Assembly: GCA_947388185.1 (NCBI GenBank)
Contig: CANDQP010000022.1
Location: forward strand, 1 to 35,563
DNA from: an uncultured Dorea sp.
Lineage (GTDB): Bacteria; Bacillota; Clostridia; Lachnospirales; Lachnospiraceae
Direction of reading: 5' to 3'
DNA length: 35,563 nt
Part shown: in pieces, positions 5,476 to 24,230 of the stretch
Numbering within the stretch: the stretch's first letter is position 1
Layout: each line of letters begins with the position of its first letter
The notes under the pieces: model-generated
The model's input: the letters and a program-made list of their open reading frames with translations, nothing else
Database searches by the model: none
What the model was told of the DNA's origin: nothing
Made by a program: the position numbers and the translations under genes

Positions 5476-6591
5476 TTAAAGGGCTTTCTTTTCATACAAG
5501 TTAAAAAATTCCAAAGCCTGTTGTAAGGTAATATCTAACTTAGTCTGTAAGCGCAGTAAAATATCCCTTTTGGACATGGAGAATTCAAAACCGGTATCAA
5601 TAATTTCTTGTGCTCTGCCTTCAATTTTGCCCTCGGTTCTACCTTCAATCTTGCCCTCGGTTCTACCTTCAATCTTGCCCTCGGTTCTACCTTCAATCCA
5701 GCCTTCTGTCCTGATTTCATCAAATAAAGTACACATTGCAGAATCCCCTTTCTTGAAAGAATTATAATTAATTTTGGTATCAGTAGCACCTGCGATTGCC
5801 ATAATAACGGATTTATCAGTCTGATGCTCATTACTGTATAGAATGGCTTCTTGTCTGGCTTCCTTGAGGGATAAATTCTTATTAAGAATGATTCCCATGA
5901 GGTGAAAGAAATCTATGTTGTCAGAGTTGTGAAAAACCAAATCAGGATTGCGGGCTTCAATCAGCAGAATCTTGTAGTCATTCACATATTTCTTAAATTC
6001 GTATGGAATATTCAACATCTCGTGAAGAGACCGTGCACCGTCCCAAGGTTCCTCGCCATAATAGATAACAATGGTTATAACCGGAGAGAATTTATCAGTA
6101 CGCTTCATTCTGGAAAGAAATTCATTTGGATCCAGTTTAGTGGGAGTATCGGCAGGCAGCACTTCATTAGAGATGTTGTCTGGTGTATTAATATGGTCAG
6201 CCTGCTTTGCTGAACCTTTGGCTCTGTATTTAGAAGCATTAATGTCGTATTGCCGCTTATAAGAGCTGTAGTCATATCCCATAACGCGCAAGGGCGTAGC
6301 ATAATGGATATGGGATTGATTTTCGATGCCAAGTATTGTAAATTCCAGATCAAGTACAGAAGAATTTTTCCGGATTTTGAGAAGGTCTCTGGCACCATTA
6401 TAGGATTCAGAATGATTGTTATGCTCCAAGATAAAAGAAGCTTCGGTGTCTTGCTCTTCCAACTCATCGGGTTTGATGATCTGTCTGCCGTGAAAAAGAG
6501 AGGCGTTGAAGAGATCAGCAAATCGATTGTTATTGCGCCAGAAATCTTTTAAAGGGATATCGGCATTATGGTTATGATTATTTTTAGACAT
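5476..6591 (-). CDS. Rpn-family (PD-(D/E)XK nuclease/putative transposase) protein, copy A
   Basis: Rpn-like protein with VITIVIYYGEEPWDG and the C-terminal GRTEGKIE repeat tail typical of this family. Confidence 0.75.
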   Translation of the reverse strand: MSKNNHNHNADIPLKDFWRNNNRFADLFNASLFHGRQIIKPDELEEQDTEASFILEHNNHSESYNGARDLLKIRKNSSVLDLEFTILGIENQSHIHYATPLRVMGYDYSSYKRQYDINASKYRAKGSAKQADHINTPDNISNEVLPADTPTKLDPNEFLSRMKRTDKFSPVITIVIYYGEEPWDGARSLHEMLNIPYEFKKYVNDYKILLIEARNPDLVFHNSDNIDFFHLMGIILNKNLSLKEARQEAILYSNEHQTDKSVIMAIAGATDTKINYNSFKKGDSAMCTLFDEIRTEGWIEGRTEGKIEGRTEGKIEGRTEGKIEGRAQEIIDTGFEFSMSKRDILLRLQTKLDITLQQALEFFNLYEKKAL

Positions 6592-6816: not shown

Positions 6817-7010
6817 CGCATAAAGAAACGGATTTCCGTGATTGAAGAGCAGGGAAAAAGTAGAATGAAAAAGGAATGGTGTGCTATGCATGGCATTAAC
6901 CGCACGTCTTTCTTTCGGTGGCAGAAACGGGTCAGGGAGTACCTACTCGATCACTGTGAGACCCAACCCTCACAGTGCCCATCATCTATCCCATCTAATA
7001 ATGAAGTGGG
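6817..7010 (+). pseudogene. IS66-type TnpA-like fragment between the two repeats
   Basis: The unique spacer encodes RISVIEEQGKSRMKKEWCAMHGINRTSFFRWQKRVREYLLDH, resembling the small HTH TnpA protein of IS66-type elements. Both ends are fused to repeat sequence. Confidence 0.55.
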
Positions 7011-8113
7011 TTTTCATACAAGTTAAAATATTCCAAAGCCTGTTGTAAGGTAATATCTAACTTAGTCTGTAAGCGCAGTAAAATATCCCTTTTGGACATG
7101 GAGAATTCAAAACCGGTATCAATAATTTCTTGTGCTCTGCCTTCAATTTTGCCCTCGGTTCTACCTTCAATCTTGCCCTCGGTTCTACCTTCAATCTTGC
7201 CCTCGGTTCTACCTTCAATCCAGCCTTCTGTCCTGATTTCATCAAATAAAGTACACATTGCAGAATCCCCTTTCTTGAAAGAATTATAATTAATTTTGGT
7301 ATCAGTAGCACCTGCGATTGCCATAATAACGGATTTATCAGTCTGATGCTCATTACTGTATAGAATGGCTTCTTGTCTGGCTTCCTTGAGGGATAAATTC
7401 TTATTAAGAATGATTCCCATGAGGTGAAAGAAATCTATGTTGTCAGAGTTGTGAAAAACCAAATCAGGATTGCGGGCTTCAATCAGCAGAATCTTGTAGT
7501 CATTCACATATTTCTTAAATTCGTATGGAATATTCAACATCTCGTGAAGAGACCGTGCACCGTCCCAAGGTTCCTCGCCATAATAGATAACAATGGTTAT
7601 AACCGGAGAGAATTTATCAGTACGCTTCATTCTGGAAAGAAATTCATTTGGATCCAGTTTAGTGGGAGTATCGGCAGGCAGCACTTCATTAGAGATGTTG
7701 TCTGGTGTATTAATATGGTCAGCCTGCTTTGCTGAACCTTTGGCTCTGTATTTAGAAGCATTAATGTCGTATTGCCGCTTATAAGAGCTGTAGTCATATC
7801 CCATAACGCGCAAGGGCGTAGCATAATGGATATGGGATTGATTTTCGATGCCAAGTATTGTAAATTCCAGATCAAGTACAGAAGAATTTTTCCGGATTTT
7901 GAGAAGGTCTCTGGCACCATTATAGGATTCAGAATGATTGTTATGCTCCAAGATAAAAGAAGCTTCGGTGTCTTGCTCTTCCAACTCATCGGGTTTGATG
8001 ATCTGTCTGCCGTGAAAAAGAGAGGCGTTGAAGAGATCAGCAAATCGATTGTTATTGCGCCAGAAATCTTTTAAAGGGATATCGGCATTATGGTTATGAT
8101 TATTTTTAGACAT
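6995..8113 (-). CDS. Rpn-family (PD-(D/E)XK nuclease/putative transposase) protein, copy B
   Basis: Same protein as copy A apart from the C-terminal end (LEYFNLYENPLHY versus LEFFNLYEKKAL). Confidence 0.75.
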   Translation of the reverse strand: MSKNNHNHNADIPLKDFWRNNNRFADLFNASLFHGRQIIKPDELEEQDTEASFILEHNNHSESYNGARDLLKIRKNSSVLDLEFTILGIENQSHIHYATPLRVMGYDYSSYKRQYDINASKYRAKGSAKQADHINTPDNISNEVLPADTPTKLDPNEFLSRMKRTDKFSPVITIVIYYGEEPWDGARSLHEMLNIPYEFKKYVNDYKILLIEARNPDLVFHNSDNIDFFHLMGIILNKNLSLKEARQEAILYSNEHQTDKSVIMAIAGATDTKINYNSFKKGDSAMCTLFDEIRTEGWIEGRTEGKIEGRTEGKIEGRTEGKIEGRAQEIIDTGFEFSMSKRDILLRLQTKLDITLQQALEYFNLYENPLHY

Positions 8114-12494: not shown

Positions 12495-13099
12495 AGTAGT
12501 CCTTTCTTCATTAATATTTCTTGGATATCTACCCTATCTATGTAAACAGAGTATCATTCTGTCTCTAAGATTCCATTATATATAAGTATACCGCATAATT
12601 TGTCGAAGTTCAACGACTTTGTCCCTGAAATGAAACTGCACAGTTACCATTTACTGACAAAACCGCAACTAATAAAGATATGCCTATATATAGAAATTTC
12701 TGAATATACGCTATTATATTCAGAGAATCAGCCCAAGAATCCGGTTTTTCCAAAATCTTTCCATAAAATTTGTCTCAACCCCGGAAACAAGGCATGACAT
12801 TCCGTTTCCTTAATATCCACTATAATAATATATCGTCACAAAAGGAATTTTGATTATAAGAGTTTTAGTGATAAAAACAAGAAAGTTGTTCCAATTGAGA
12901 ATTCAGGAAATGAAATAGCAGCGTTATGCCTTTTCCTGGAATATTTTCCCCGGTACCACCACGGCTGCGATTGCCAGAACAAGTCAATGTAATGGATCAA
13001 AAATACAGGAAATTGCAGCTTGACAAAACGAGATTCTTGTGGTAGATTAATCATAAATCAAAACTGATGTTCTGTCAGTGGATTTCAAAGTTTCATTTC

Positions 13100-13114
13100 T
13101 TGCAGGATCTGCAA
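13100..13114. promoter_or_regulatory. Palindrome TTGCAGGATCTGCAA, copy 1 (possible operator)
   Basis: 6-bp perfect inverted repeat with a 3-bp centre, inside a ~40-bp conserved block (13088-13127) upstream of the 13239 gene. Confidence 0.5.
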
Positions 13115-13238
13115 AGAATTCAGACAATCAATTTTTATCATTATATTGAGAGGAAAGCGGTGATGCCTATGGATGTATTTGCCTGAGGGAAGGACTATTT
13201 TTTAACTGTGAATTGTGCTAAGATGAAGGAGTAATAGT

Positions 13239-14312
13239 ATGAAAAACAGAATAGTGTCGAAGATAGCAGAGGCAGCCAGGAGATATCGTGTGAATCAGAA
13301 GTACAAGGACAGGATATTCCGTATGATTTTCCATAAGAAGAAGGATTTGCTGTCCCTGTATAATGCCATTAATGGAACCAATTATACGAATCCGGATGAT
13401 CTGGAGATCCGGACGTTGGATGACGCGGTGTATCTGGGATATAAGAACGACCTGTCATTTTTGATCAGTGATACCTTGAACCTGTATGAACACCAGAGTA
13501 CGGTGAATCCCAATATGCCGTTAAGGGGGATGCTGTATTTTGCCAATATGCTGAAAGCATATGTTGAGGAGAAGAAGTGCAATATCTATGGATCGAAGCT
13601 GGTACAGCTTCCCGTGCCGCGGTATCTGGTTTTCTATAATGGTTCAGACAGCATGCCGGATGTATCGGTGCTGAGCCTGTCGGATGCATATATGAGGACG
13701 GCTGATGTGTCTGCGGGAAAGGGCGGTATGGATGGAACGGAGTGTGTATCTGAGGATAGAGAAGATGCAGGGGCGGCAGATTATACGCCGGGAACCATAC
13801 AGGATGCAATAAAGGCGGCAGACCCGGCGCTGGAGTGCAGAGCGGTGATACTGAACATCAATAAAGGACACAATATAGAACTGATGGCAAAATGCGATCG
13901 CCTGGAGGCATATGCGTTTTTTGTATCGAGAGTCCGCGCGTATCTGGCGGCAGGTTGTACTTTGGAAGCTGCTGTAGATCGGGCGATAGATGATTGTGTA
14001 ACGAATGATAAATTGACGGATATACTGGAGAAGAAAAGAGCGGAGGTAAAGGATTTGTTATCGTAGGATTTTAGTGAGAAGAAGTATCGGAAGATGTTGG
14101 TAGAAGAAGCAATAGCGGAAGGAAGAGAAGAAGGAAGAGAAGAGGGAAGAGAAGAGGGAAGAAAAGAAGGAAGAGTAGAAGGAAGACTCTTAACTGTCAG
14201 GATTTTACGGGAAACGAAAGAAAATCCGGAAATTACATTTGAGCAGATAGCAGAAAAGGTGGGCTGCACGGCGCAAGAAGTGGAAGATACCCTAAAGATG
14301 ATTGGAATGTAG
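13239..14312 (+). pseudogene. Rpn-family nuclease-like gene interrupted by an in-frame TAG
   Basis: ORFs 13239-14066 and 14094-14312 are in the same frame with one TAG at 14064-14066; reading through gives ...EVKDLLS*DFSEKKYRKMLVEEAIAEGREEGREEG..., a normal family C-terminus. Confidence 0.7.
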
Positions 14313-14403
14313 GGGAAATGCAGGTAGGATTGAATTTTGAATTCAATGACAACATTTTATAAAAGGTGTATTATGGACAAAACGATTCTTAGGAGGAAAA
14401 TAT

Positions 14404-14775
14404 ATGAAGATAAGGACAGATTTTGTATCCAACAGTTCATCATCATCTTTTATATTGGCAAGAAAAGGAGAGCTGACTGAGGAACAAAAAGAAGCGATCA
14501 TTGAATACGTCGAAGAGAAGATGTTAGGCACGCCGTTACCGCCGATTGAAGAAGGGGAAGACAGGGAGACATATTTTGAACGGGCTGATTGCTGGAGCAG
14601 TTGCAGCCTGGAAAAGTTGTTGAAAGCTCAGGAAAAAGGCATGACATTATATAGCGGGTGGGTGAATTTTGAGATCAGTGATGATTCAGAGATGTATCGG
14701 GAGATTTGGAGTCTGATCGAGCAGGCTGGAGATGGGTCTAATTTTAAACAGATTGATACAGATCTGTACTATTGA
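14404..14775 (+). CDS. Hypothetical protein with N-terminal RTDFVSNSSSSSF motif (possible substrate or partner of the radical SAM enzyme)
   Basis: MKIRTDFVSNSSSSSFILARKG...; RBS TAGGAGGAAAATAT; 12 bp from the radical SAM gene. Confidence 0.8.
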   Translation: MKIRTDFVSNSSSSSFILARKGELTEEQKEAIIEYVEEKMLGTPLPPIEEGEDRETYFERADCWSSCSLEKLLKAQEKGMTLYSGWVNFEISDDSEMYREIWSLIEQAGDGSNFKQIDTDLYY

Positions 14776-14787
14776 TCGGGAGGAGCA

Positions 14788-15852
14788 ATGCGAAGAATAG
14801 TTGATGAGAAGTATCGATACATCTCTCTTTTTGATGACCGATCGGGATTTTATATACGCAGCGGAGTATTTAAGGATGGCAGAGAGACAGAAGAAGATCC
14901 GTTCATGTCTAGTTTCCCGGAGTTGCTGGATGTAGGGATTATGGGGCATTGTGTACACGGGCTCTCGGGATTGTGCAAGGGAACAGGTGTTGAGTGTTAT
15001 CAAGATGGGTGGAATGTGACACAGCCGAATATGAGTATCAGTGATTTCCTGTCGGTTGCGAAGCAATGTGAAGGGCGGACTTATCAGTTTGCACTTGGCG
15101 GCAGAGGCGATCCTGATCAACATGAAGAATTTGAATCTATCTTGCGGATATGCAGGGAGCATCATATCGTACCGAATTTTACTTCGTCCGGTCTATGTTT
15201 TAATGATGATATTGTAGAGCTATGCAGGCAGTATTGCGGTGCTGTAGCAGTCAGTTGGTATGGACAGCCGTATACGGCCAGAGCTATTAAGATGCTAGTT
15301 AAGGCAGGTGTCAAGACTAATATACATTTTGTATTAGACAGAGTATCTATTAAGAGGGTAGAATATTTCTTGAATTATGAAGTTCCGGACGGAGTGAATG
15401 CAGTTGTATTCCTTTTACATAAGCCGATTGGGGCAGGAAGAAGAGAAAAGGTGCTTTTATGGAATGATGCGGATCTGCAAAGGTTGTTTCAGAGCATTGA
15501 TAATCGGATTTTCTCATATAAGATAGGTTTTGACAGTTGCTCCGTTCCCGGACTGCTTTATAATATGAAGAATATCAATTTTGATTCATTAGATACATGT
15601 GAAGCGGCACGCTGGTCGGCATATGTGACACCGGATATGAAGCTTTTGCCGTGCAGCTTTGATAATCAGGATGAAAGATGGGCAGTTGATCTCAGAGAAC
15701 ATACGATTGTTGAGGCTTGGAATAGCGTCGAATTTGACAGATTTCGCGATAATTTTCATACATCATGCCCAACGTGCAGCAGACAGAGACAGTGTATGGG
15801 AGGGTGTCCGATCTGTCCGGATATCGTCCTATGCAAAGATAGGGTTTCCTGA
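14788..15852 (+). CDS. Radical SAM/SPASM-domain protein with non-canonical cluster motif
   Basis: GHCVHGLSGLCKGTGVECYQ near the N-terminus, ALGGRGDPDQHEEF (GGE-like motif), SPASM-like C-terminus (DTCEAAR...LLPCSF...SCPTCSRQRQCMGGCPICPD). Confidence 0.8.
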   Translation: MRRIVDEKYRYISLFDDRSGFYIRSGVFKDGRETEEDPFMSSFPELLDVGIMGHCVHGLSGLCKGTGVECYQDGWNVTQPNMSISDFLSVAKQCEGRTYQFALGGRGDPDQHEEFESILRICREHHIVPNFTSSGLCFNDDIVELCRQYCGAVAVSWYGQPYTARAIKMLVKAGVKTNIHFVLDRVSIKRVEYFLNYEVPDGVNAVVFLLHKPIGAGRREKVLLWNDADLQRLFQSIDNRIFSYKIGFDSCSVPGLLYNMKNINFDSLDTCEAARWSAYVTPDMKLLPCSFDNQDERWAVDLREHTIVEAWNSVEFDRFRDNFHTSCPTCSRQRQCMGGCPICPDIVLCKDRVS

Positions 15853-15863
15853 ATGGAGAGATT

Positions 15864-16190
15864 ATGTATCCAACGATCAATAAAGCAAAGACCGGAGAGA
15901 GAATAGAAAAGCTTATGAAGTCCAGTGGGAAGACACCCCGGGATATTCAGAAATATTTGGGATTGACGTGTGTCCAGTCGGTTTACAGATGGCTGGAGGG
16001 AATCAATATTCCGAGTATTGATAATTTCTATGCATTAAGCCAGTTATTTCAGATAACGATTGATGAGATGATTGTGGGTAATAGAGAGAGGTATATATGT
16101 GATATGCAATATATCAGTGTTCAGAAAGCTGTTATGCGGAAGAGAATACAGTTATATTGCGACCATATGGTGGCACAAGCAATATTGTGA
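15864..16190 (+). CDS. XRE-family helix-turn-helix regulator
   Basis: GERIEKLMKSSGKTPRDIQKYLGLTCVQSVYRWLEGINIPSIDNFYALSQLFQITIDEMIV is a typical HTH_3 domain. Confidence 0.88.
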   Translation: MYPTINKAKTGERIEKLMKSSGKTPRDIQKYLGLTCVQSVYRWLEGINIPSIDNFYALSQLFQITIDEMIVGNRERYICDMQYISVQKAVMRKRIQLYCDHMVAQAIL

Positions 16191-16278
16191 TGGGAAGATC
16201 ATGTGTTGATATGTTTGTCAATACATGATCTTAGGAATCATCAAGAATCTATAAAACATATTTTCTAAGTTTCATATC

Positions 16279-16293
16279 TTGCAGGATCTGCAA
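16279..16293. promoter_or_regulatory. Palindrome TTGCAGGATCTGCAA, copy 2 (possible operator)
   Basis: Identical 15-mer within a conserved ~40-bp block (16267-16306) upstream of jetD. Confidence 0.5.
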
Positions 16294-16467
16294 AAAATTC
16301 AGAAAAATACAGAAGATTATAAAGTTGATTGAGTATATTAGAGAAGCATGATAAAATAGCAGGGAAGAAGGATGCTGATGGGGAATTTTAGTGAAGAATT
16401 ATGAAGCGATTGGAAAAGGAGTAAAAGATATTATGGGTAGAAAAGTGTTAGAGTATGAGGCGAAGAG

Positions 16468-17460
16468 ATGAAGCGGATCACTCTGGAATCTCTGATCCGA
16501 TCACATCAAGATACTCCATACGATCGACAATATGAATATATACTGACACTCATATCGGAGGGGAAGATCAAGCCTCTGAAAGCATCCGGGACGAATGGTA
16601 AGCATCCTGCGCTATACCGGGAATATTGGCTGATCGAGCAGGAGAAGGATTACCTTGCACTTGAAGAAGAGTTAAAATACCGGCTGCATCCCCTGATCTC
16701 CGTGGATTATTATCTGTCCCATCTGAGTAATTATGAGAAGGACAGAGTATGGGTCTTGAGGCTGAGTGAATATCTCAAACAGAGCAGGGAATACTTGGGA
16801 TACGCGGAATCTGTGAATGAGCGCAGCTTTGAGATATGGGGCAGAGAGAAGTTCCTGGGGCGCGAACAGGGGAAGAGGATCTTGAAGAATTGCGGACTGA
16901 CGGAGGAGTTTCTTCATATCTATCAGACTACGGAACCGCTGGCATATTATTCGCATACGCGGGACGTGCCGCAGAATCTCCTTATCCTGGAGAATAAGGA
17001 TACCTTCTATAGCATGCGGCGGCATTTGATGGAGGGAGGCGGCAGAATCCTGGGGATGGAGTTCGGAACGCTGATCTATGGTGCTGGGAAGGGCATTTTG
17101 CGTTCATTCCTGGATTTTGATCTGTGTGTAGAGCCATATATGAGGGATGGCAGGAATGGGATCTATTATTTCGGAGATCTGGACTACGAGGGCATCGGTA
17201 TCTATGAGAGTCTTGCGAAGATGAACGCCGGGGAGCGGAAGGTGTTGCCGCTTGCGGCGGCATATGAGACGATGATCGAGAAGGCAGAGAGGACTTGCGG
17301 GACGGAGAATCTTCCGGATACGAAGGAGCAGCAGAACCGGAATATCCGGGAGGAGTTTTTCTCATATTTTGATACGGTGTGTGAAGACAAGATGAGGAAG
17401 CTGTTGGAGTCCGGGAAATATATCCCGCAGGAGATATTGAATATTACAGATTTTAGGTAG
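16468..17460 (+). CDS. jetD: Wadjet anti-plasmid system JetD (TOPRIM/DUF2220-like)
   Basis: ILENKDTFYSMRR and YYFGDLDYEGIGIYESL (TOPRIM/topoVI-A-like); first gene of a four-gene MukBEF-like operon. Confidence 0.88.
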   Translation: MKRITLESLIRSHQDTPYDRQYEYILTLISEGKIKPLKASGTNGKHPALYREYWLIEQEKDYLALEEELKYRLHPLISVDYYLSHLSNYEKDRVWVLRLSEYLKQSREYLGYAESVNERSFEIWGREKFLGREQGKRILKNCGLTEEFLHIYQTTEPLAYYSHTRDVPQNLLILENKDTFYSMRRHLMEGGGRILGMEFGTLIYGAGKGILRSFLDFDLCVEPYMRDGRNGIYYFGDLDYEGIGIYESLAKMNAGERKVLPLAAAYETMIEKAERTCGTENLPDTKEQQNRNIREEFFSYFDTVCEDKMRKLLESGKYIPQEILNITDFR

Positions 17461-17471
17461 AGAGGAACAAG

Positions 17472-19082
17472 ATGCAGTATGAATTTTTGAAACATTTTCC
17501 AAGAAGGATGAAGAATGTGGGCCTGTATGCGCTGCTGATCCAGAACAGCGCTCAGAAGACGACTTGGAAGCAGTATGGGTTCCTGACGCTTGGGGAGCAG
17601 CTGAATCTGATCTTTGCTGTGATGCTCTACGTTATGGAGCAGTCTTTGAAGGAAGAGCATTGTACGATGGATGATATCGGGGCCTATATCGACACTGTCA
17701 ATACACAGCATTTCGGGAAGGATATGACATATGATGACTGCAGGCAGCTTGGAGACTTTGTGGTCAATGTTGTGTTGTCCAACGAGGGCAAGGCGATGTA
17801 TTTTGACGGGTTTGATTTCGAACAGAATGCGTATCAGACCTTGCATATCAGTTATATAGCGAACAGGATCATCTACATAGATCAGGAATTCAGACGCACT
17901 TCTTATTATTTGACAGACGACGGATATAATCTTCTTCTTGCAACCCTTGAGATTGAGAACAATATGAAACTGACCATCCATGAGATGATATTTCAGATGC
18001 ATCTTGAGAAGCAGAGCTATGACAAGGCTGTGGACGAGATCAAGAATGTGTTTAACCTGTTGAGGATCCAGCTTCAGAAGATCCAGGAGGCTATGGGGAA
18101 GATCCGGAGAAATGCATTGAATTACTCTGTGAAGGATTATGAGGAGATCCTGGTGGGGAATCTGGATACGATCAGTGATACGAAGCAGAAGTTCCAGAAC
18201 TACAGGGAGATGGTGAAGAGCCGTGCGCGTGCGTTGGAGGAGGAGAATATCAATGTGAAGCGGCTCAGCGGGAAGGATGAGGAGAAGCTTGGCAATCTCC
18301 GGGTGATCGAGACATATCTGAACCGGACGATCGATGAGCATCAGAAGATATTGAACAGCCATTTCGATCTTAAGGCTTTATATACGAAGGAGTTGGAGAC
18401 GCTGTCGCAGATGTCTCTGATCCGGCGGTTTCCTATGCGGACAGAACTGTATGATAAGATCCTGGAGGATCCTAAGGGCCTGGAGAATCTGGATTATTTT
18501 CTTCGGCCGCTGTTCAATCAGGAGATAGAGAAGGTATATAACCTGAATAAGGCATTTCAGCTGCAGCGTCCGGTGCGCAGGCGGGAAGAAGAGGATGCCG
18601 CGGAAGAGCTGGATTTTGATGAGGAGGAGTGGATAAGGGAGCAGGAGCGGCTGCGCAAGGAGAAGCTTAAGCGTTATGAAGTGAGTCTTGGCAGGATTCT
18701 TGGGTATGCGGCAAGAACGGGAGAGATCTCTCTTATGGAGATCGCGGCGCTTACGCAGGAGAAGGAAGAGGAACGCCGGGAGCTGATTCCCAATGTCGAG
18801 ATATTCAAGGAGATCATGGTGGAACTGATCAGGAACCAGGAGATCGATATTGCTGCGCTTTTAAGGGAACGCAGTGAATTCATCCAGGATCGGCCGGGAG
18901 AGTTCCAGCTAAATGAGATGCTGCTGCGCCTGGTGGAGGAATATCCCAGGTTCCGTCACGTCAGTAAGGTGGAGACGTATCGGATCGAGGACGGGAGCAC
19001 GGTGACATTTGAAGGGATATTGAATGAGGAGCAGGAGCGAAAGACGATCCGGTGTTCGAATGTGCGGATTCGGGTTATGTGA
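17472..19082 (+). CDS. jetA: Wadjet JetA (MukF/kleisin-like)
   Basis: Position and size; MQYEFLKHFPRRMKNVGLYALLIQNS..., long helical middle, acidic region DAAEELDFDEEEW. Confidence 0.85.
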   Translation: MQYEFLKHFPRRMKNVGLYALLIQNSAQKTTWKQYGFLTLGEQLNLIFAVMLYVMEQSLKEEHCTMDDIGAYIDTVNTQHFGKDMTYDDCRQLGDFVVNVVLSNEGKAMYFDGFDFEQNAYQTLHISYIANRIIYIDQEFRRTSYYLTDDGYNLLLATLEIENNMKLTIHEMIFQMHLEKQSYDKAVDEIKNVFNLLRIQLQKIQEAMGKIRRNALNYSVKDYEEILVGNLDTISDTKQKFQNYREMVKSRARALEEENINVKRLSGKDEEKLGNLRVIETYLNRTIDEHQKILNSHFDLKALYTKELETLSQMSLIRRFPMRTELYDKILEDPKGLENLDYFLRPLFNQEIEKVYNLNKAFQLQRPVRRREEEDAAEELDFDEEEWIREQERLRKEKLKRYEVSLGRILGYAARTGEISLMEIAALTQEKEEERRELIPNVEIFKEIMVELIRNQEIDIAALLRERSEFIQDRPGEFQLNEMLLRLVEEYPRFRHVSKVETYRIEDGSTVTFEGILNEEQERKTIRCSNVRIRVM

Positions 19083-19102
19083 GGAAAGCGGGGAGAGCAG
19101 AT

Positions 19103-19819
19103 ATGGCATATGAATTAGAGGAAGTCAGGATCAGCCAGGAGATCTTCTATTATCTTCTGGAGCATCACGAGCTTCGGGAAGAAGAGGAGATACAGCTATA
19201 TAAGGCATACACGGAGCAGGAAGAGGTCCAGAACCTGGTCAAATCCCAGGGAGAGATTGCCCAGAGCCGGATCGAGCGGTATGGGAATGTGATCTACCTG
19301 ATCCCCAGAGAGGAGAATCATTTCCTGGGGTTCTCCAAAGCTCAGCTTAAGGCGGCGCTATGCAAATCGTCAGGTACGGATAAGGATTACTATCTGTCCC
19401 AATTCGTGGTGCTGACTCTTCTGGTGGAATTCTTTGACGGTCAGGGGAGCAGCAGTAAGGCGAGAGAATACATCCGGGTGGGAGAGCTTCAGAACTGTAT
19501 CTCTGCGCGGCTCAGGGAGGGCGCCCAGAGTATGGATGAGGAGGAAGAAGAGCAGGGAGGAATCGCATTCTCCAATATGTTGGAGGCGTATGAGGCGCTG
19601 CGCTCGGATGATAAGGGATCCAGAGCGAAGACTACGAAGGAAGGTTTTCTGCATCACATACTGTTATTCCTGCAGAAGCAGGGATTGATCGAGTATGTAG
19701 AGCCGGATGTGATGATCAAGACTACGAAGAAGCTGGATAATTTCATGGACTGGAATCTGCTGAACCAGAATAATTATCACAGAGTGCTGCGAGTGCTGGG
19801 GGTGACGGAGGATGAGTAA
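19103..19819 (+). CDS. jetB: Wadjet JetB (MukE/KITE-like)
   Basis: Located between JetA and JetC; winged-helix-like content. Start moved to MAYELEEVRISQEIF, after the jetA stop and a GGGGAGAG RBS. Confidence 0.82.
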   Translation: MAYELEEVRISQEIFYYLLEHHELREEEEIQLYKAYTEQEEVQNLVKSQGEIAQSRIERYGNVIYLIPREENHFLGFSKAQLKAALCKSSGTDKDYYLSQFVVLTLLVEFFDGQGSSSKAREYIRVGELQNCISARLREGAQSMDEEEEEQGGIAFSNMLEAYEALRSDDKGSRAKTTKEGFLHHILLFLQKQGLIEYVEPDVMIKTTKKLDNFMDWNLLNQNNYHRVLRVLGVTEDE

Positions 19820-22800
19820 GATACAGGCTGTCAGGCTGATCAATGTGAATTACAACAATAATGCGATCCGTGTCAGTGATGAATGTCTCCATCTGAATGG
19901 GGAGAGTACGCTGCTCTCTCTCAGGAACGGCGGCGGCAAGTCGGTGCTGGTCCAGATGATGCTCGCTCCGTTTGTGCATAAGAGATACCGAGATGCGAAG
20001 GACCGTCCTTTCGAGAGCTACTTTACATCGAGCAAGCCGTCATTTATCCTGGTGGAGTGGGTGCTGGACGGCAAAGCAGGGTATGTCCTTACGGGGATGA
20101 TGGTGCGAAGGAGCCAGGAGAGCGGTGAAGGCAGCGGCGAGAATCTGGAGATGATCAATATCATCAGTGAATATAAGGAACCGTGTATCCAGGATATCCA
20201 CCATCTGCCGGTAGTGGAGAAGGGGAAGAAGGAGATGATCCTCAAGAATTTTGCGGCATGCAGGCAGATATTTGAGACGTATAAGAAGGATCGCTCGATG
20301 AATTTCTTCTATTATGATATGACGAATGCTGCGCAGTCCAGGCAGTATTTTGACAAGCTTACGGAGTACCAGATCCATTATAAGGAATGGGAGACGATCA
20401 TTAAGAAGGTGAACCTCAAGGAATCGGGACTTTCGGAGCTGTTCGCGGACTGCCGGGACGAGAAAGGCCTGGTGGAGAAATGGTTTCTTGACGCGGTAGA
20501 GAGCAAGCTGAATAAGGAGCGGAACCGCATGAAGGAATTCCAGACCATTCTGGAGAAATATGTGGGGCAGTACAAGGATAACCAGACCAAGATCAAGCGG
20601 CGCGACATCATATGCGCTTTCAAGGGAGAGGCGGAAGGAATCCGGGAGAGAGCGGAAGACTATTTTGCGAAGACGGAAGAGGTGAAGAGGCAGGAGAATC
20701 TTGTGGCACATTTTATTGCAGAACTGAACCGGCTGCATGGTGTGACAGAGGAAGAATACAATGATATCCTTGCGAGGATCGAGGAACTCCGGGAACAGAT
20801 AGCCAGGGTTGAATATGAGAAGCTGTCCAGCGAGATCCACAGACTCAATGAGGAGCAGTATTATCACATCAGTAACCGGGATATGATTGAGATCGAGAAG
20901 GAGGATCTGGAAGGGGAGGCCGGGAAGATCGAGAGGATGCTGCATCTGCTCAGATGTGCCAGACAACAGAAGGCGGCAGAGCAGGAGCGGGAGGAATTGG
21001 AGCTGATCCGTCAGAAGCTTCTTGTGTCACGTCAGAAGGAAGAGGATCTGGAGCCGGAGAGGAATGCGTTAGGATCTGCGCTGAGACGGTATTACGGGGA
21101 ACTTGTTGAGGAGAATGAGAAGAAGAGGCAGGAGAATGAAGAAGAGGCCAGGGTGACCGCAGAGGAGCTTAGCGAGGCGGAAGGGAAGCTTACAGCTCTG
21201 GGAGAGGAGCTGATAGAGAATGCTGCCAGAGAAGGCGGGCTAAGGAATGCGGCAGCGTCCTATGACAGGACAGAGGACAACTTCAACCGTTGTTATGAGG
21301 AAGCCCTGGTCCGTAATATTCTTGGAGTATATGAGCCGGGAATGCTGGAGATCCGCCGGGAGGCTTATGAGAAGGAGCTTGAGAAGCTCTCACGGGCAAG
21401 ACAGGGGCTTAAGAGACAGCAGGAACAGGCGCAGGAGAGAAGCAGGAGCCGGGAGCGTGCGCTTCAGGACCTGCAGGCCGGGCAGCTTCGCGGGAAGCTT
21501 ATGCTGACGCAGAAGGAGGATATTCGGAAGGGGTATGAGCAGGAGCTTGATGATCGAAGAACGGTACTTAGTTATCTGAATCTGGAAGAAGCGGTATTGT
21601 TCGATACAGAGAAGATCCTGCATGCTTCCGGGAGAAAATTGCTGGAGATTGCGGGAATCAGGCGGAAGCTTGAGAAGGAAGAGGATATCCTGCAGAAGGA
21701 ATACCACAGGCTGACGCAGGGGAAGGTACTGGAGCTGCCAGAGGAACTGGAGCAGGAGCTTATCGATCTGGGAATCCATGTGGTCTATGGAATGGAGTGG
21801 TTAGGGAAGAACGGGTACTCGGAGCAGCAGAATCTGGAGCTGGTACGCCGTCATCCATTCCTGCCCTATGCGCTGATCCTGTCAGAGGCAGAGCTTAAGA
21901 AGCTGTCCGGGCACACAGAAGGGATCTATACCTCGTTTCCTGTTCCGATCGTGCCAAGAGAATTATTGGAGAGAAGTGAAAGCGAGCGGGAGAGCGGGAT
22001 CATACGGCTTGACGGGGTCAGCTTCTATGTGCTGTTCAATGAGAATCTGCTGAATGAAGAGAAGCTGCGCCTTCTGGTCGAAGAGAAGGAGAGGCAGATC
22101 CAGAGAAAGAAGGAAGCGATTGCCATCCGCCAGGCGGAGTACAAGGAGTATTTTGAACGGCAGGAGATGGTTCGGAACCAGGAGGTCAGCAAAGAGAAGT
22201 GGGATGCCAACGACAAGAGCATCAAGGAGCTTACGGAGAAGCTCGGGAAGCTGTGCGGGGAGATCCGGGAATGTACAGACGAGCTTAGCGCGCTTAAGGA
22301 AGAGACCTTGCGGTTGGAACAGGATATCCGTAAGAACGGGAAGGAGACAGAACATAAGCAGAGAAGATTTGAAGACTTTATCCGTCTGTGCAGGGACTAT
22401 GAGCTGTATGAGCAGAACCTGAACGATCTTGAGCGCTGCAAGAAGGAGGCCGAGAAGCTTACCCAGAAACAGAAGCTTTTGAAGGATCGGCAGGAGAAAC
22501 TCAGAGAACGTCAGAAGTCCGAAGAGATCGAGAGAAATCATCTGCTGCATACGGGGGAGGAGCTTAAGAGGGAGGCGCGGAAGTACCAGAAGTATGCCGA
22601 TCATTCGGATATGACGGATGAGCCTGGGAGGGACAGTCAGGAAGATATCCGAGAATTGGAGGCCAGATATGCCGCGATCACATCCAGTATGTCCCAGGAG
22701 ATCCAGGAGTTGGAGGATCAGGAGCAGAGGGCTGGGAGCCGTTGCCAGGAAGCAGCGGACGAGCTTGGACATCTGCAGAGAAAATACGGCCTTACCGCGG

Positions 22801-24230
22801 ACGAATGGGCAGACATATCCTATAGCCGGGAGGAGGAAACACACCAGGAGATCATGTTTGAGGACCGCAGGCAGAAGATTGCGGTAAAACAAAGACTCTG
22901 GAATGAAGAAGACAAGCAGATCGCTGTGATCGGTCAGCAGAAGAGCGAGCGTCTGAAGAGGATGCAAAGCGAGTGCGGGGAAGATGAACCGCTTCCTAAG
23001 GCGAAGATCCAGGATCAGGATTTCGATGCAAGGAAGAATCAGTTCCGTTATCAGGAGAAGGAGGCTGAGAAGCAGGCGGAGAATCGGAAGGAGCGGCTCA
23101 GGATCTATGATGAGAATCTGACGGCGCTGGCTGAATTCAGTGATCTCCCGCTGGGAGAGGAGATTGTGTGGGAACAGGACTTCCAGGAGATGGACGGACA
23201 GAATCTCAGGAACTATAAGGGAATCCTGATCAGGGATCATAAGCAGAAGGAGCGGGACAGCCGGGATGCAAGAGAACGGCTTACAAGGCTGCTGAACCGG
23301 GTTGTGCGCATGGAGCAGTTTCAGGAGGATTTCTACAGGAAGCCGCTTGAGTCTATGCTGGAGCTGACGGGGGATGCGTCTGCCGTGCTTCGGCAGCTAT
23401 CAACGACTCTCCAGTCTTATGACAGCCTGATGGAGAAGCTTATGGTTGATATCTCTCTGGTGGAGAAGGAGAAGAAGAAGATCGTGGAGCTGATGGAGGA
23501 TTATATTCGTGAGGTGCACCAGAACCTGGGCAGGATCGACCATAATTCTACCATCACGATCCGGGAACGTCCGGTCAAGATGTTGAAGCTCCAGATCCCG
23601 GAATGGGAGGAGAACGAGAATCTGTATCTGATCCGTCTGCAGGATATGATCGACGAGATCACTCAGAAAGGGTTAAGACTGTTCGAACAGAATGAGAACG
23701 CGCAGGAATATTTCGGTACGCAGATCACAACGAGGAATCTCTATGATACGGTGGTCGGGATCGGCAATGTGCAGATACGCCTGTATAAGATCGAGGCTCA
23801 GAGAGAATACCCGATCACCTGGGCGGAGGTGGCCAGGAATTCCGGCGGAGAAGGATTCTTATCGGCATTCGTTATTCTCTCAAGCCTTCTGTACTATATG
23901 AGGAAGGACGATACGGATATATTTGCGGACAGGAACGAGGGTAAGGTTCTGGTGATGGATAATCCTTTTGCACAGACGAATGCATCACATCTGCTGAAGC
24001 CGTTGATGGATGTGGCGAAGAAGTCGAATACGCAGCTGGTCTGCCTTACCGGTCTTGGTGGAGAGTCAATCTACAACCGTTTCGACAATATTTATGTGCT
24101 GAATCTGATCGCGGCAAGCCTGAGGAACGGCATGCAATACCTGAAAGCAGATCATCTGCGGGGGAATGAGCCGGAGACGATGATCGTGTCTCAGATCGAA
24201 GTGATGGAACAGCAGGAGCTGGTGTTTTAA
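19812..24230 (+). CDS. jetC: Wadjet JetC (MukB/SMC-like ATPase)
   Basis: Walker A LRNGGGKSVLVQMM, ~1100 aa coiled coil, signature NSGGEGFLSAFVILSSLLYYMR, Walker B GKVLVMDNPFAQTNASHLLKP; overlaps jetB by 8 nt. Confidence 0.95.
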   Translation: MSKIQAVRLINVNYNNNAIRVSDECLHLNGESTLLSLRNGGGKSVLVQMMLAPFVHKRYRDAKDRPFESYFTSSKPSFILVEWVLDGKAGYVLTGMMVRRSQESGEGSGENLEMINIISEYKEPCIQDIHHLPVVEKGKKEMILKNFAACRQIFETYKKDRSMNFFYYDMTNAAQSRQYFDKLTEYQIHYKEWETIIKKVNLKESGLSELFADCRDEKGLVEKWFLDAVESKLNKERNRMKEFQTILEKYVGQYKDNQTKIKRRDIICAFKGEAEGIRERAEDYFAKTEEVKRQENLVAHFIAELNRLHGVTEEEYNDILARIEELREQIARVEYEKLSSEIHRLNEEQYYHISNRDMIEIEKEDLEGEAGKIERMLHLLRCARQQKAAEQEREELELIRQKLLVSRQKEEDLEPERNALGSALRRYYGELVEENEKKRQENEEEARVTAEELSEAEGKLTALGEELIENAAREGGLRNAAASYDRTEDNFNRCYEEALVRNILGVYEPGMLEIRREAYEKELEKLSRARQGLKRQQEQAQERSRSRERALQDLQAGQLRGKLMLTQKEDIRKGYEQELDDRRTVLSYLNLEEAVLFDTEKILHASGRKLLEIAGIRRKLEKEEDILQKEYHRLTQGKVLELPEELEQELIDLGIHVVYGMEWLGKNGYSEQQNLELVRRHPFLPYALILSEAELKKLSGHTEGIYTSFPVPIVPRELLERSESERESGIIRLDGVSFYVLFNENLLNEEKLRLLVEEKERQIQRKKEAIAIRQAEYKEYFERQEMVRNQEVSKEKWDANDKSIKELTEKLGKLCGEIRECTDELSALKEETLRLEQDIRKNGKETEHKQRRFEDFIRLCRDYELYEQNLNDLERCKKEAEKLTQKQKLLKDRQEKLRERQKSEEIERNHLLHTGEELKREARKYQKYADHSDMTDEPGRDSQEDIRELEARYAAITSSMSQEIQELEDQEQRAGSRCQEAADELGHLQRKYGLTADEWADISYSREEETHQEIMFEDRRQKIAVKQRLWNEEDKQIAVIGQQKSERLKRMQSECGEDEPLPKAKIQDQDFDARKNQFRYQEKEAEKQAENRKERLRIYDENLTALAEFSDLPLGEEIVWEQDFQEMDGQNLRNYKGILIRDHKQKERDSRDARERLTRLLNRVVRMEQFQEDFYRKPLESMLELTGDASAVLRQLSTTLQSYDSLMEKLMVDISLVEKEKKKIVELMEDYIREVHQNLGRIDHNSTITIRERPVKMLKLQIPEWEENENLYLIRLQDMIDEITQKGLRLFEQNENAQEYFGTQITTRNLYDTVVGIGNVQIRLYKIEAQREYPITWAEVARNSGGEGFLSAFVILSSLLYYMRKDDTDIFADRNEGKVLVMDNPFAQTNASHLLKPLMDVAKKSNTQLVCLTGLGGESIYNRFDNIYVLNLIAASLRNGMQYLKADHLRGNEPETMIVSQIEVMEQQELVF

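Follow-up and report, generated by a model that had tools for sequence, protein, structure and literature searches.

The three-cysteine motif of the radical-SAM superfamily typically has the spacing CX3CX2C, and the members SuiB, PqqE, anSMEcpe, SkfB and CteB all modify peptides or proteins. SkfB, SuiB and CteB are SPASM RiPP maturases, and anSME is the enzyme for Ser/Cys-type sulfatases, which carry the motif [CS]-x-[PA]-x-R. The locus described here resembles the SPASM RiPP maturases in its fold, in the combination of a radical-SAM and a SPASM domain and in a neighbouring small protein whose N-terminal segment is conserved. It is located in a stretch of 35,563 nucleotides from an uncultured Dorea sp. 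of the Lachnospiraceae (contig CANDQP010000022.1, assembly GCA_947388185.1), which is called the window in the following. The locus comprises these features:

14391-14396, plus strand: AGGAGG ribosome-binding site of the tag gene, 7 bases upstream of the ATG, read directly from the sequence
14404-14451, plus strand: tag, codons 1-16 (MKIRTDFVSNSSSSSF), a conserved motif with residues 1-14 predicted to be disordered in the structure model of the 123-aa protein
14404-14775, plus strand: tag-bearing protein of 123 aa, the presumed substrate or partner of the enzyme, matching phrog_7397 through its tag only
14788-15852, plus strand: radical-SAM/SPASM enzyme of 354 aa, assigned by family profiles, structure model and closest solved folds
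14950-14997, plus strand: radical-SAM cluster loop C55-X7-C63-X6-C70 (enzyme codons 55-70), assigned by conservation among relatives
15598-15834, plus strand: SPASM region (enzyme codons 271-349) with C271, C289, C327, C330, C336, C340 and C349, assigned by PF13186 and TIGR04085
15864-16190, plus strand: XRE/HTH_3 regulator of 108 aa, weakly RstR/DicA-like and accessory, assigned by the HTH_3 profile

The original prediction of three co-directional genes with gaps of 12 and 11 bases was confirmed by these ORFs. The 123-aa protein (MKIRTDFVSNSSSSSFILARKG) contains both the serine-rich start and the DCWSSCS segment that had been ascribed to it, and it matches no Pfam or NCBIfam family above cut-off. 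In the same profile search the 108-aa protein passed the HTH_3 cut-off (28.7 versus 23), in agreement with its prediction as an XRE/HTH regulator. GAGGAG is located immediately upstream of the start of the enzyme gene, and the scan for promoters and terminators gave results at chance level. Just 3' of the HTH gene there is a 15-base inverted repeat (93%, 8-base loop; 16195-16232), which was not scored as a terminator and is possibly an operator.

For the second gene, the assignment as a SPASM radical-SAM enzyme held, as its product passed the cut-offs of both Pfam SPASM (PF13186; 26.1 versus 21.5) and TIGR04085 (28.1 versus 27). By its sequence, it has the three-cysteine [4Fe-4S] motif as well as a C-terminal seven-cysteine auxiliary-cluster domain. 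The AF2 model (pLDDT 91.9) displays a partial TIM-barrel fold, and Foldseek placed it closest to SuiB, PqqE, anSME (anSMEcpe), SkfB and CteB, with E values of 1e-12 to 1e-8 for the first four. The best PDB profile match is SkfB (E 7.6e-9), and the best NCBIfam match is TIGR04317, the tungsten-cofactor oxidoreductase radical-SAM maturase (E 8.6e-9); membership in the latter family was ruled out, as the alignment is only partial and reaches 34.9 bits versus a cut-off of 380. With regard to the N-terminal cysteines a correction is needed, since the window enzyme has the spacing CX7CX6C (C55, C63, C70) and not CX3CX2C. Among 94 relatives, C55 and C70 are invariant and C63 is conserved to 90%, whereby the CX7CX6C spacing is found in the window clade and CX3CX2C in many relatives. 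Because the homologues have both spacings and near-invariant cysteines, the window enzyme is a genuine radical-SAM protein whose cluster loop has expanded, and not a dead enzyme. Besides the cluster loop, C251, C271, C289 and C330 are invariant across all enzyme clades. The full SPASM cysteine set occurs only in the window-type clade, and the phage clades keep part of it, without the last SPASM cysteines. The phage version of the enzyme is phrog_7293, which is matched by the window enzyme with an E value of 1.1e-18. In the Lachnospiraceae, two homologues lack a tag gene, namely L042 (828-1835) and L043 (7211-8221). Either the cluster loop or the SPASM end is missing from them, the loop being lost in L042, and these chromosomal copies are decayed or repurposed. 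In a phage locus (L139, 3795-6131), the radical-SAM gene is interrupted in the conserved barrel region by an intein (Intein_splicing 3.5e-10, LAGLIDADG).

The serine-rich start of the 123-aa protein belongs to a 16-residue tag, MKIRxDFVTNSSSSSF, which opens many unrelated small proteins of bacteria and of many large phages and has the consensus M-K-x-[RK]-x-[DG]-[FY]-V-[TS]-N-S-S-S-[STA]-[SNC]-[FY]. The tag is located at the extreme N-terminus, with F at residue 7 in 538 of 562 distinct ORFs, and N10 and the first three serines (S11-S13) are conserved to 98-100%. In loci that were selected by the enzyme, where the tag ORFs were anchored on MK....[FY]VxN alone, positions 11-13 are serine in 98%, followed by S/T/A at position 14, S/N/C at position 15 and F/Y at position 16. 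In the 562 ORFs, the tag serines are encoded by TCN and AGY codons in a ratio of about 50:50 at every position. As both codon classes are used equally, selection acts on the amino acid, and a nucleotide-level signal was ruled out. An SD-like site precedes 148 of 181 tag ORFs elsewhere. It had been suggested that either the serine-rich N-terminus or the CWSSC segment is a recognition or modification site; the former is conserved and linked to the enzyme and was retained, whereas CWSSC was discarded, as it is not conserved among the seven closest relatives.

The bodies behind the tag form 130 BLAST groups, 87 of which are singletons, and since these groups are unrelated the tag is portable; the earlier statement that the serine-rich block recurs in divergent proteins thus proved right. 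In an alignment of 66 representative tag proteins the tag alone is conserved and the mean column identity of the bodies is 9%. The tag proteins have a median length of 133 aa and reach 310 aa in the survey, typically with 100-300 aa after the tag, and the bodies are acidic (median net charge -9). The body of the window protein was modelled with confidence; a PDB fold search with this model revealed nothing significant, nor did PDB sequence searches with the tag-protein alignments. Pfam yielded four isolated matches for the 66 body representatives, with no sulfatase family among them, and 16 of the 66 match phrog_7397, whereby the one inspected in detail aligned via residues 1-25. Some body groups end with HH, SHH or CxHMG, e.g., KP15_102 (L438, 6871-7386), L038 (7254-8027) and L045 (5841-7604), and another group has a zinc-finger-like CDICG directly after the tag. 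The C-terminal HH/HMG endings were ruled out as a second universal tag because they are present in some body groups only.

That tag and enzyme would co-occur in other genomes was borne out by a motif search combined with a tabulation of neighbours. In 397 genomes of the family Lachnospiraceae, the enzyme was found in nine (strong matches, E below 1e-60) and the tag (pattern [FY]V[ST]NSSSSS[FY], true serine readings) in seven; all seven tag genomes are among the nine enzyme genomes (hypergeometric p about 1e-13), and in each of them the tag gene adjoins the enzyme gene. At class level, all three tag genomes in a set of 196 belong to the five enzyme genomes (p about 8e-6), and four further genomes with the enzyme each have a nearby tag gene. 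Both other carriers within the genus have the tag-enzyme pair. On Agrobacterium and Rhodobacter plasmids, the tag gene is directly followed by a gene for a 35%-identical enzyme. The pairing is beyond chance. A similar small HTH gene adjoins the pair in the loci L036, L039, L046 and L047, and L042 has one next to its tagless homologue; it is a frequent but not universal companion, seen only in Lachnospiraceae and not in the phage and plasmid loci inspected.

Viral contigs of IMG/VR were searched with a DNA pattern for the tag only, MKxxxxFV[T/S]NSSSSSF, the enzyme being excluded from the query. This search led to at least 120 and 102 stretches, at least 220 together, versus none for a reversed tag of the same letters. 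The analysis covered 200 stretches (the last 22 fetched were left out), of which 108 contain the enzyme (E down to 1e-199), many stretches being only 2-5 kb long. In about half of the 108, the tag gene lies within about 40 bases of the enzyme gene on the same strand. For 49 tag contigs without a local enzyme, it was found elsewhere on the contig in 29, including nearly all contigs above 150 kb; the other 20 have none, and most of these are fragments, yet one has 250 kb and one 152 kb. In the enzyme-only search, for which a narrower alignment was used since the wide one is too weakly conserved for scanning, tag genes on the same strand were found in 64 of 80 loci, with a maximum of eight per locus, and some of the remaining loci carry variant tags. 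Up to 12 tag genes occur per contig, with zero control hits. Among annotated phages, 167 records with the enzyme were identified, nearly all from T4-like enterobacterial phages (Slopekvirus and relatives), as well as 175 records with a tag protein of the KP15_102 family. Phage KP15 itself has two tag genes 20 kb away from the enzyme gene, so that the linkage there is only genomic, and Vibrio phage D479 has five. In phages, the tag genes belong to the variable accessory genes; they are frequently arranged in tandem and lie at scattered sites of the genome, and in one clade they are located near tail genes, e.g., a tail-sheath-like gene.

The variable tag residues, which read DFVT or GFVS, follow the enzyme clade and not the body. 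In enzyme clade 2 (94 loci) D is present at -1 in 91% and T at +2 in 97%, and in clade 1 (27 loci) G is present at -1 in 89% and S at +2 in 100%. Ten body groups were found with both enzyme clades. When the body is the same and the enzyme clade differs, tag residue 9 (T/S) agrees in 0 of 936 pairs, whereas it agrees in 95.7% of 20,968 pairs with different bodies and the same clade; these sequence pairs are not independent events, and shared phage ancestry contributes to the covariation. The loci were drawn from separate T and S scans, and the selection ignored the enzyme clade. If the tag is read by the enzyme, a residue that tracks the enzyme and not the body is to be expected. Co-inheritance within lineages may add to the covariation, but ancestry alone would require a parallel tag change in ten families.

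Since the tag is portable, is tied to a SPASM enzyme in bacteria, plasmids and phages, and has variable residues that track the enzyme clade, a tag-directed protein modification is the best reading of these data. Thus, the enzyme probably recognises the tag and modifies the N-S-S-S-x-S segment of the neighbouring protein. We infer that the SPASM enzyme would directly recognise the tag MK-x-[RK]-x-[DG]-F-V-[TS]-N-S-S-S-x-S-F, a disordered segment at the N-terminus of the adjacently encoded protein, and would use a 5'-deoxyadenosyl radical together with its auxiliary Fe-S cluster(s) for the covalent modification of one or more residues within the N-S-S-S-x-S segment, on whole folded proteins, whereby the modified protein would be the active form. 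In phages, the proteins served by one enzyme would number from several to a dozen, with scattered genes and unrelated bodies; the cassette of this bacterium is small, with one tag protein and the regulator, and lies next to a Wadjet operon. Against this reading stand the 20 searched tag contigs that lack the enzyme, the 20-kb distance in KP15 and the missing last SPASM cysteines of the phage clades; the loss of the cluster loop or the SPASM end in the two tagless homologues speaks for it. Given that a modification takes place, a tentative candidate for the chemistry is a ring or crosslink that joins the Ser/Asn segment to F7 or F16; an oxidation of serine (formylglycine- or dehydro-like) seems doubtful, and epimerisation is rather improbable, as is any other reaction.

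It might also be that the tag serves for docking only and brings proteins to the enzyme or its complex, while the reaction takes place elsewhere, on the bodies or on another molecule. Portability and clade covariation require recognition alone; docking without modification would leave the same traces in the sequences, and disorder, as modelled for the tag, is common in recognition sequences. However, the bodies with their mean column identity of 9% offer no common target residues, and the fixation of N10 and S11-S13, encoded by both serine codon classes, exceeds what docking usually needs; we therefore consider this explanation unlikely. A signal for localisation or assembly in the phage, with an enzyme that is merely co-inherited, would fit the phage-borne, often tandem and scattered tag genes and the clade in which they lie near tail genes. 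Such a signal has hardly any probability in our view, as bacterial chromosomal and plasmid cassettes keep the tag gene next to the enzyme gene and the tag type tracks the enzyme clade over ten body groups.

The original prediction had left a choice between a RiPP-like and a protein-modification system. In a RiPP-like system the tag or the body would be a leader, and a short modified peptide would be released as the active product. A small protein beside a SPASM enzyme whose best PDB sequence match is the sactipeptide maturase SkfB would agree with this. Against it, the tag precedes an unrelated protein that is much longer than a short leader-core precursor and, in the window, is confidently modelled; the conserved part is the extreme N-terminus including the serine run; and no recurrent protease, exporter or transporter was detected in 121 enzyme loci, whose recurrent neighbour groups were read through. 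A RiPP-like pathway is thus very improbable, and a classical RiPP system was ruled out on precursor length, unrelated bodies and the lack of a protease or exporter, so that of the two options protein modification was retained.

Directly downstream of the cassette, PADLOC identified a complete Wadjet type III operon (JetD3, JetA3, JetB3, JetC3; 16468-24230; E from 1e-126 to 0). The cassette is not part of Wadjet, since its nearest relative, L036, has the cassette and no Wadjet within its 9.6 kb. Compatible with tag-directed modification, tag protein and enzyme might constitute a bacterial defence module and serve as a decoy, a sensor or an effector when phages that use the tag attack. Such a module would fit the neighbours, which are Wadjet type III in the window, an operon of the Avs1a/Avs1b-like/STAND kind in L443 and, in Agrobacterium, a SMEK_N-NACHT protein, but L036 and L046 have no obvious defence neighbours, and we regard the module as doubtful. 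It is a reasonable guess, and no more, that the system plays a role in phage-host conflict, with the tag proteins as accessory proteins of this conflict.

Several further observations concern these neighbourhoods. The L443 operon (G602:C32; 5736-11729) encodes an Avs1a-like metallo-beta-lactamase, an Avs1b-like trypsin protease, an Avs2-like STAND protein, a 142-aa protein, a tag protein and a radical-SAM enzyme, and it is possibly a new Avs variant with tag and enzyme. On two alphaproteobacterial plasmids (L301, 1574-6026; L303, 1547-6002), a SMEK_N-NACHT protein, a 121-aa protein, a tag protein (KMDFVSNSSSTSF) and a radical-SAM enzyme are encoded in one operon. In the window, a 45-base direct repeat with 91% identity (13083-13127 and 16262-16306), with weaker similarity beyond, precedes the gene at 13239 and the Wadjet operon, so that the cassette-bearing block lies between its copies; the repeat resembles a duplicated leader or an insertion scar. 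The ORFs 13239-14066 and 14094-14312 seem to be two parts of a single Rpn/PD-(D/E)XK transposase-like gene that is interrupted by a stop, and the C-terminal part weakly matches TIGR01784. The ORFs 5476-6591 and 6995-8113 (371 and 372 aa) show the same nested-ORF pattern and no Pfam match, which suggests a tandem gene duplication.

In the literature covered, outside which lay subscription journals and preprints, no paper with NSSSSSF or RTDFVTNSSSSSF was found, and within the same coverage the literature on radical SAM with phages, Avs or SMEK revealed nothing on a tag-enzyme system. phrog_7293 for the enzyme and phrog_7397 for the tag match are phage families without an assigned function. The enzyme superfamily is known, and neither the literature searched nor the family databases contained a portable N-terminal tag on more than 100 unrelated proteins with a dedicated radical-SAM enzyme matched to it. 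It may be, and we put this forward with caution, that a new post-translational system is present here, in which a dedicated radical-SAM enzyme, encoded by phage or host, would modify a portable N-terminal tag on more than 100 unrelated phage and bacterial proteins; radical chemistry on whole folded proteins, with matched DFVT/GFVS dialects of tag and enzyme, would thereby enter phage-host conflict. This system would be categorically new. The tag unites hundreds of function-less phage proteins and links them to one enzyme family. If the reading is true, cultured Klebsiella, Citrobacter and Vibrio phages would harbour a new protein modification, and a large set of unannotated phage accessory genes would become accessible to study; the two dialects would provide a natural orthogonal enzyme-tag pair for protein labelling.

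With regard to the known systems, no RRE-like domain is apparent in the enzyme model here, unlike in SkfB, SuiB and CteB. The locus further differs from these maturases in having N-terminally tagged folded proteins, many unrelated bodies per enzyme and no protease or exporter, and in being phage-borne. anSME is a close structural match, and there, too, one SPASM enzyme is combined with a short motif in several whole proteins; its substrates, however, are homologous sulfatases, whereas here unrelated proteins carry the motif N-S-S-S-x-S-F at their N-terminus. On account of this tag consensus and the lack of sulfatases among the 66 representatives, sulfatase maturation was ruled out. Overall, the proposed system would work like RiPP maturases and anSME in that a SPASM enzyme reads a short motif.
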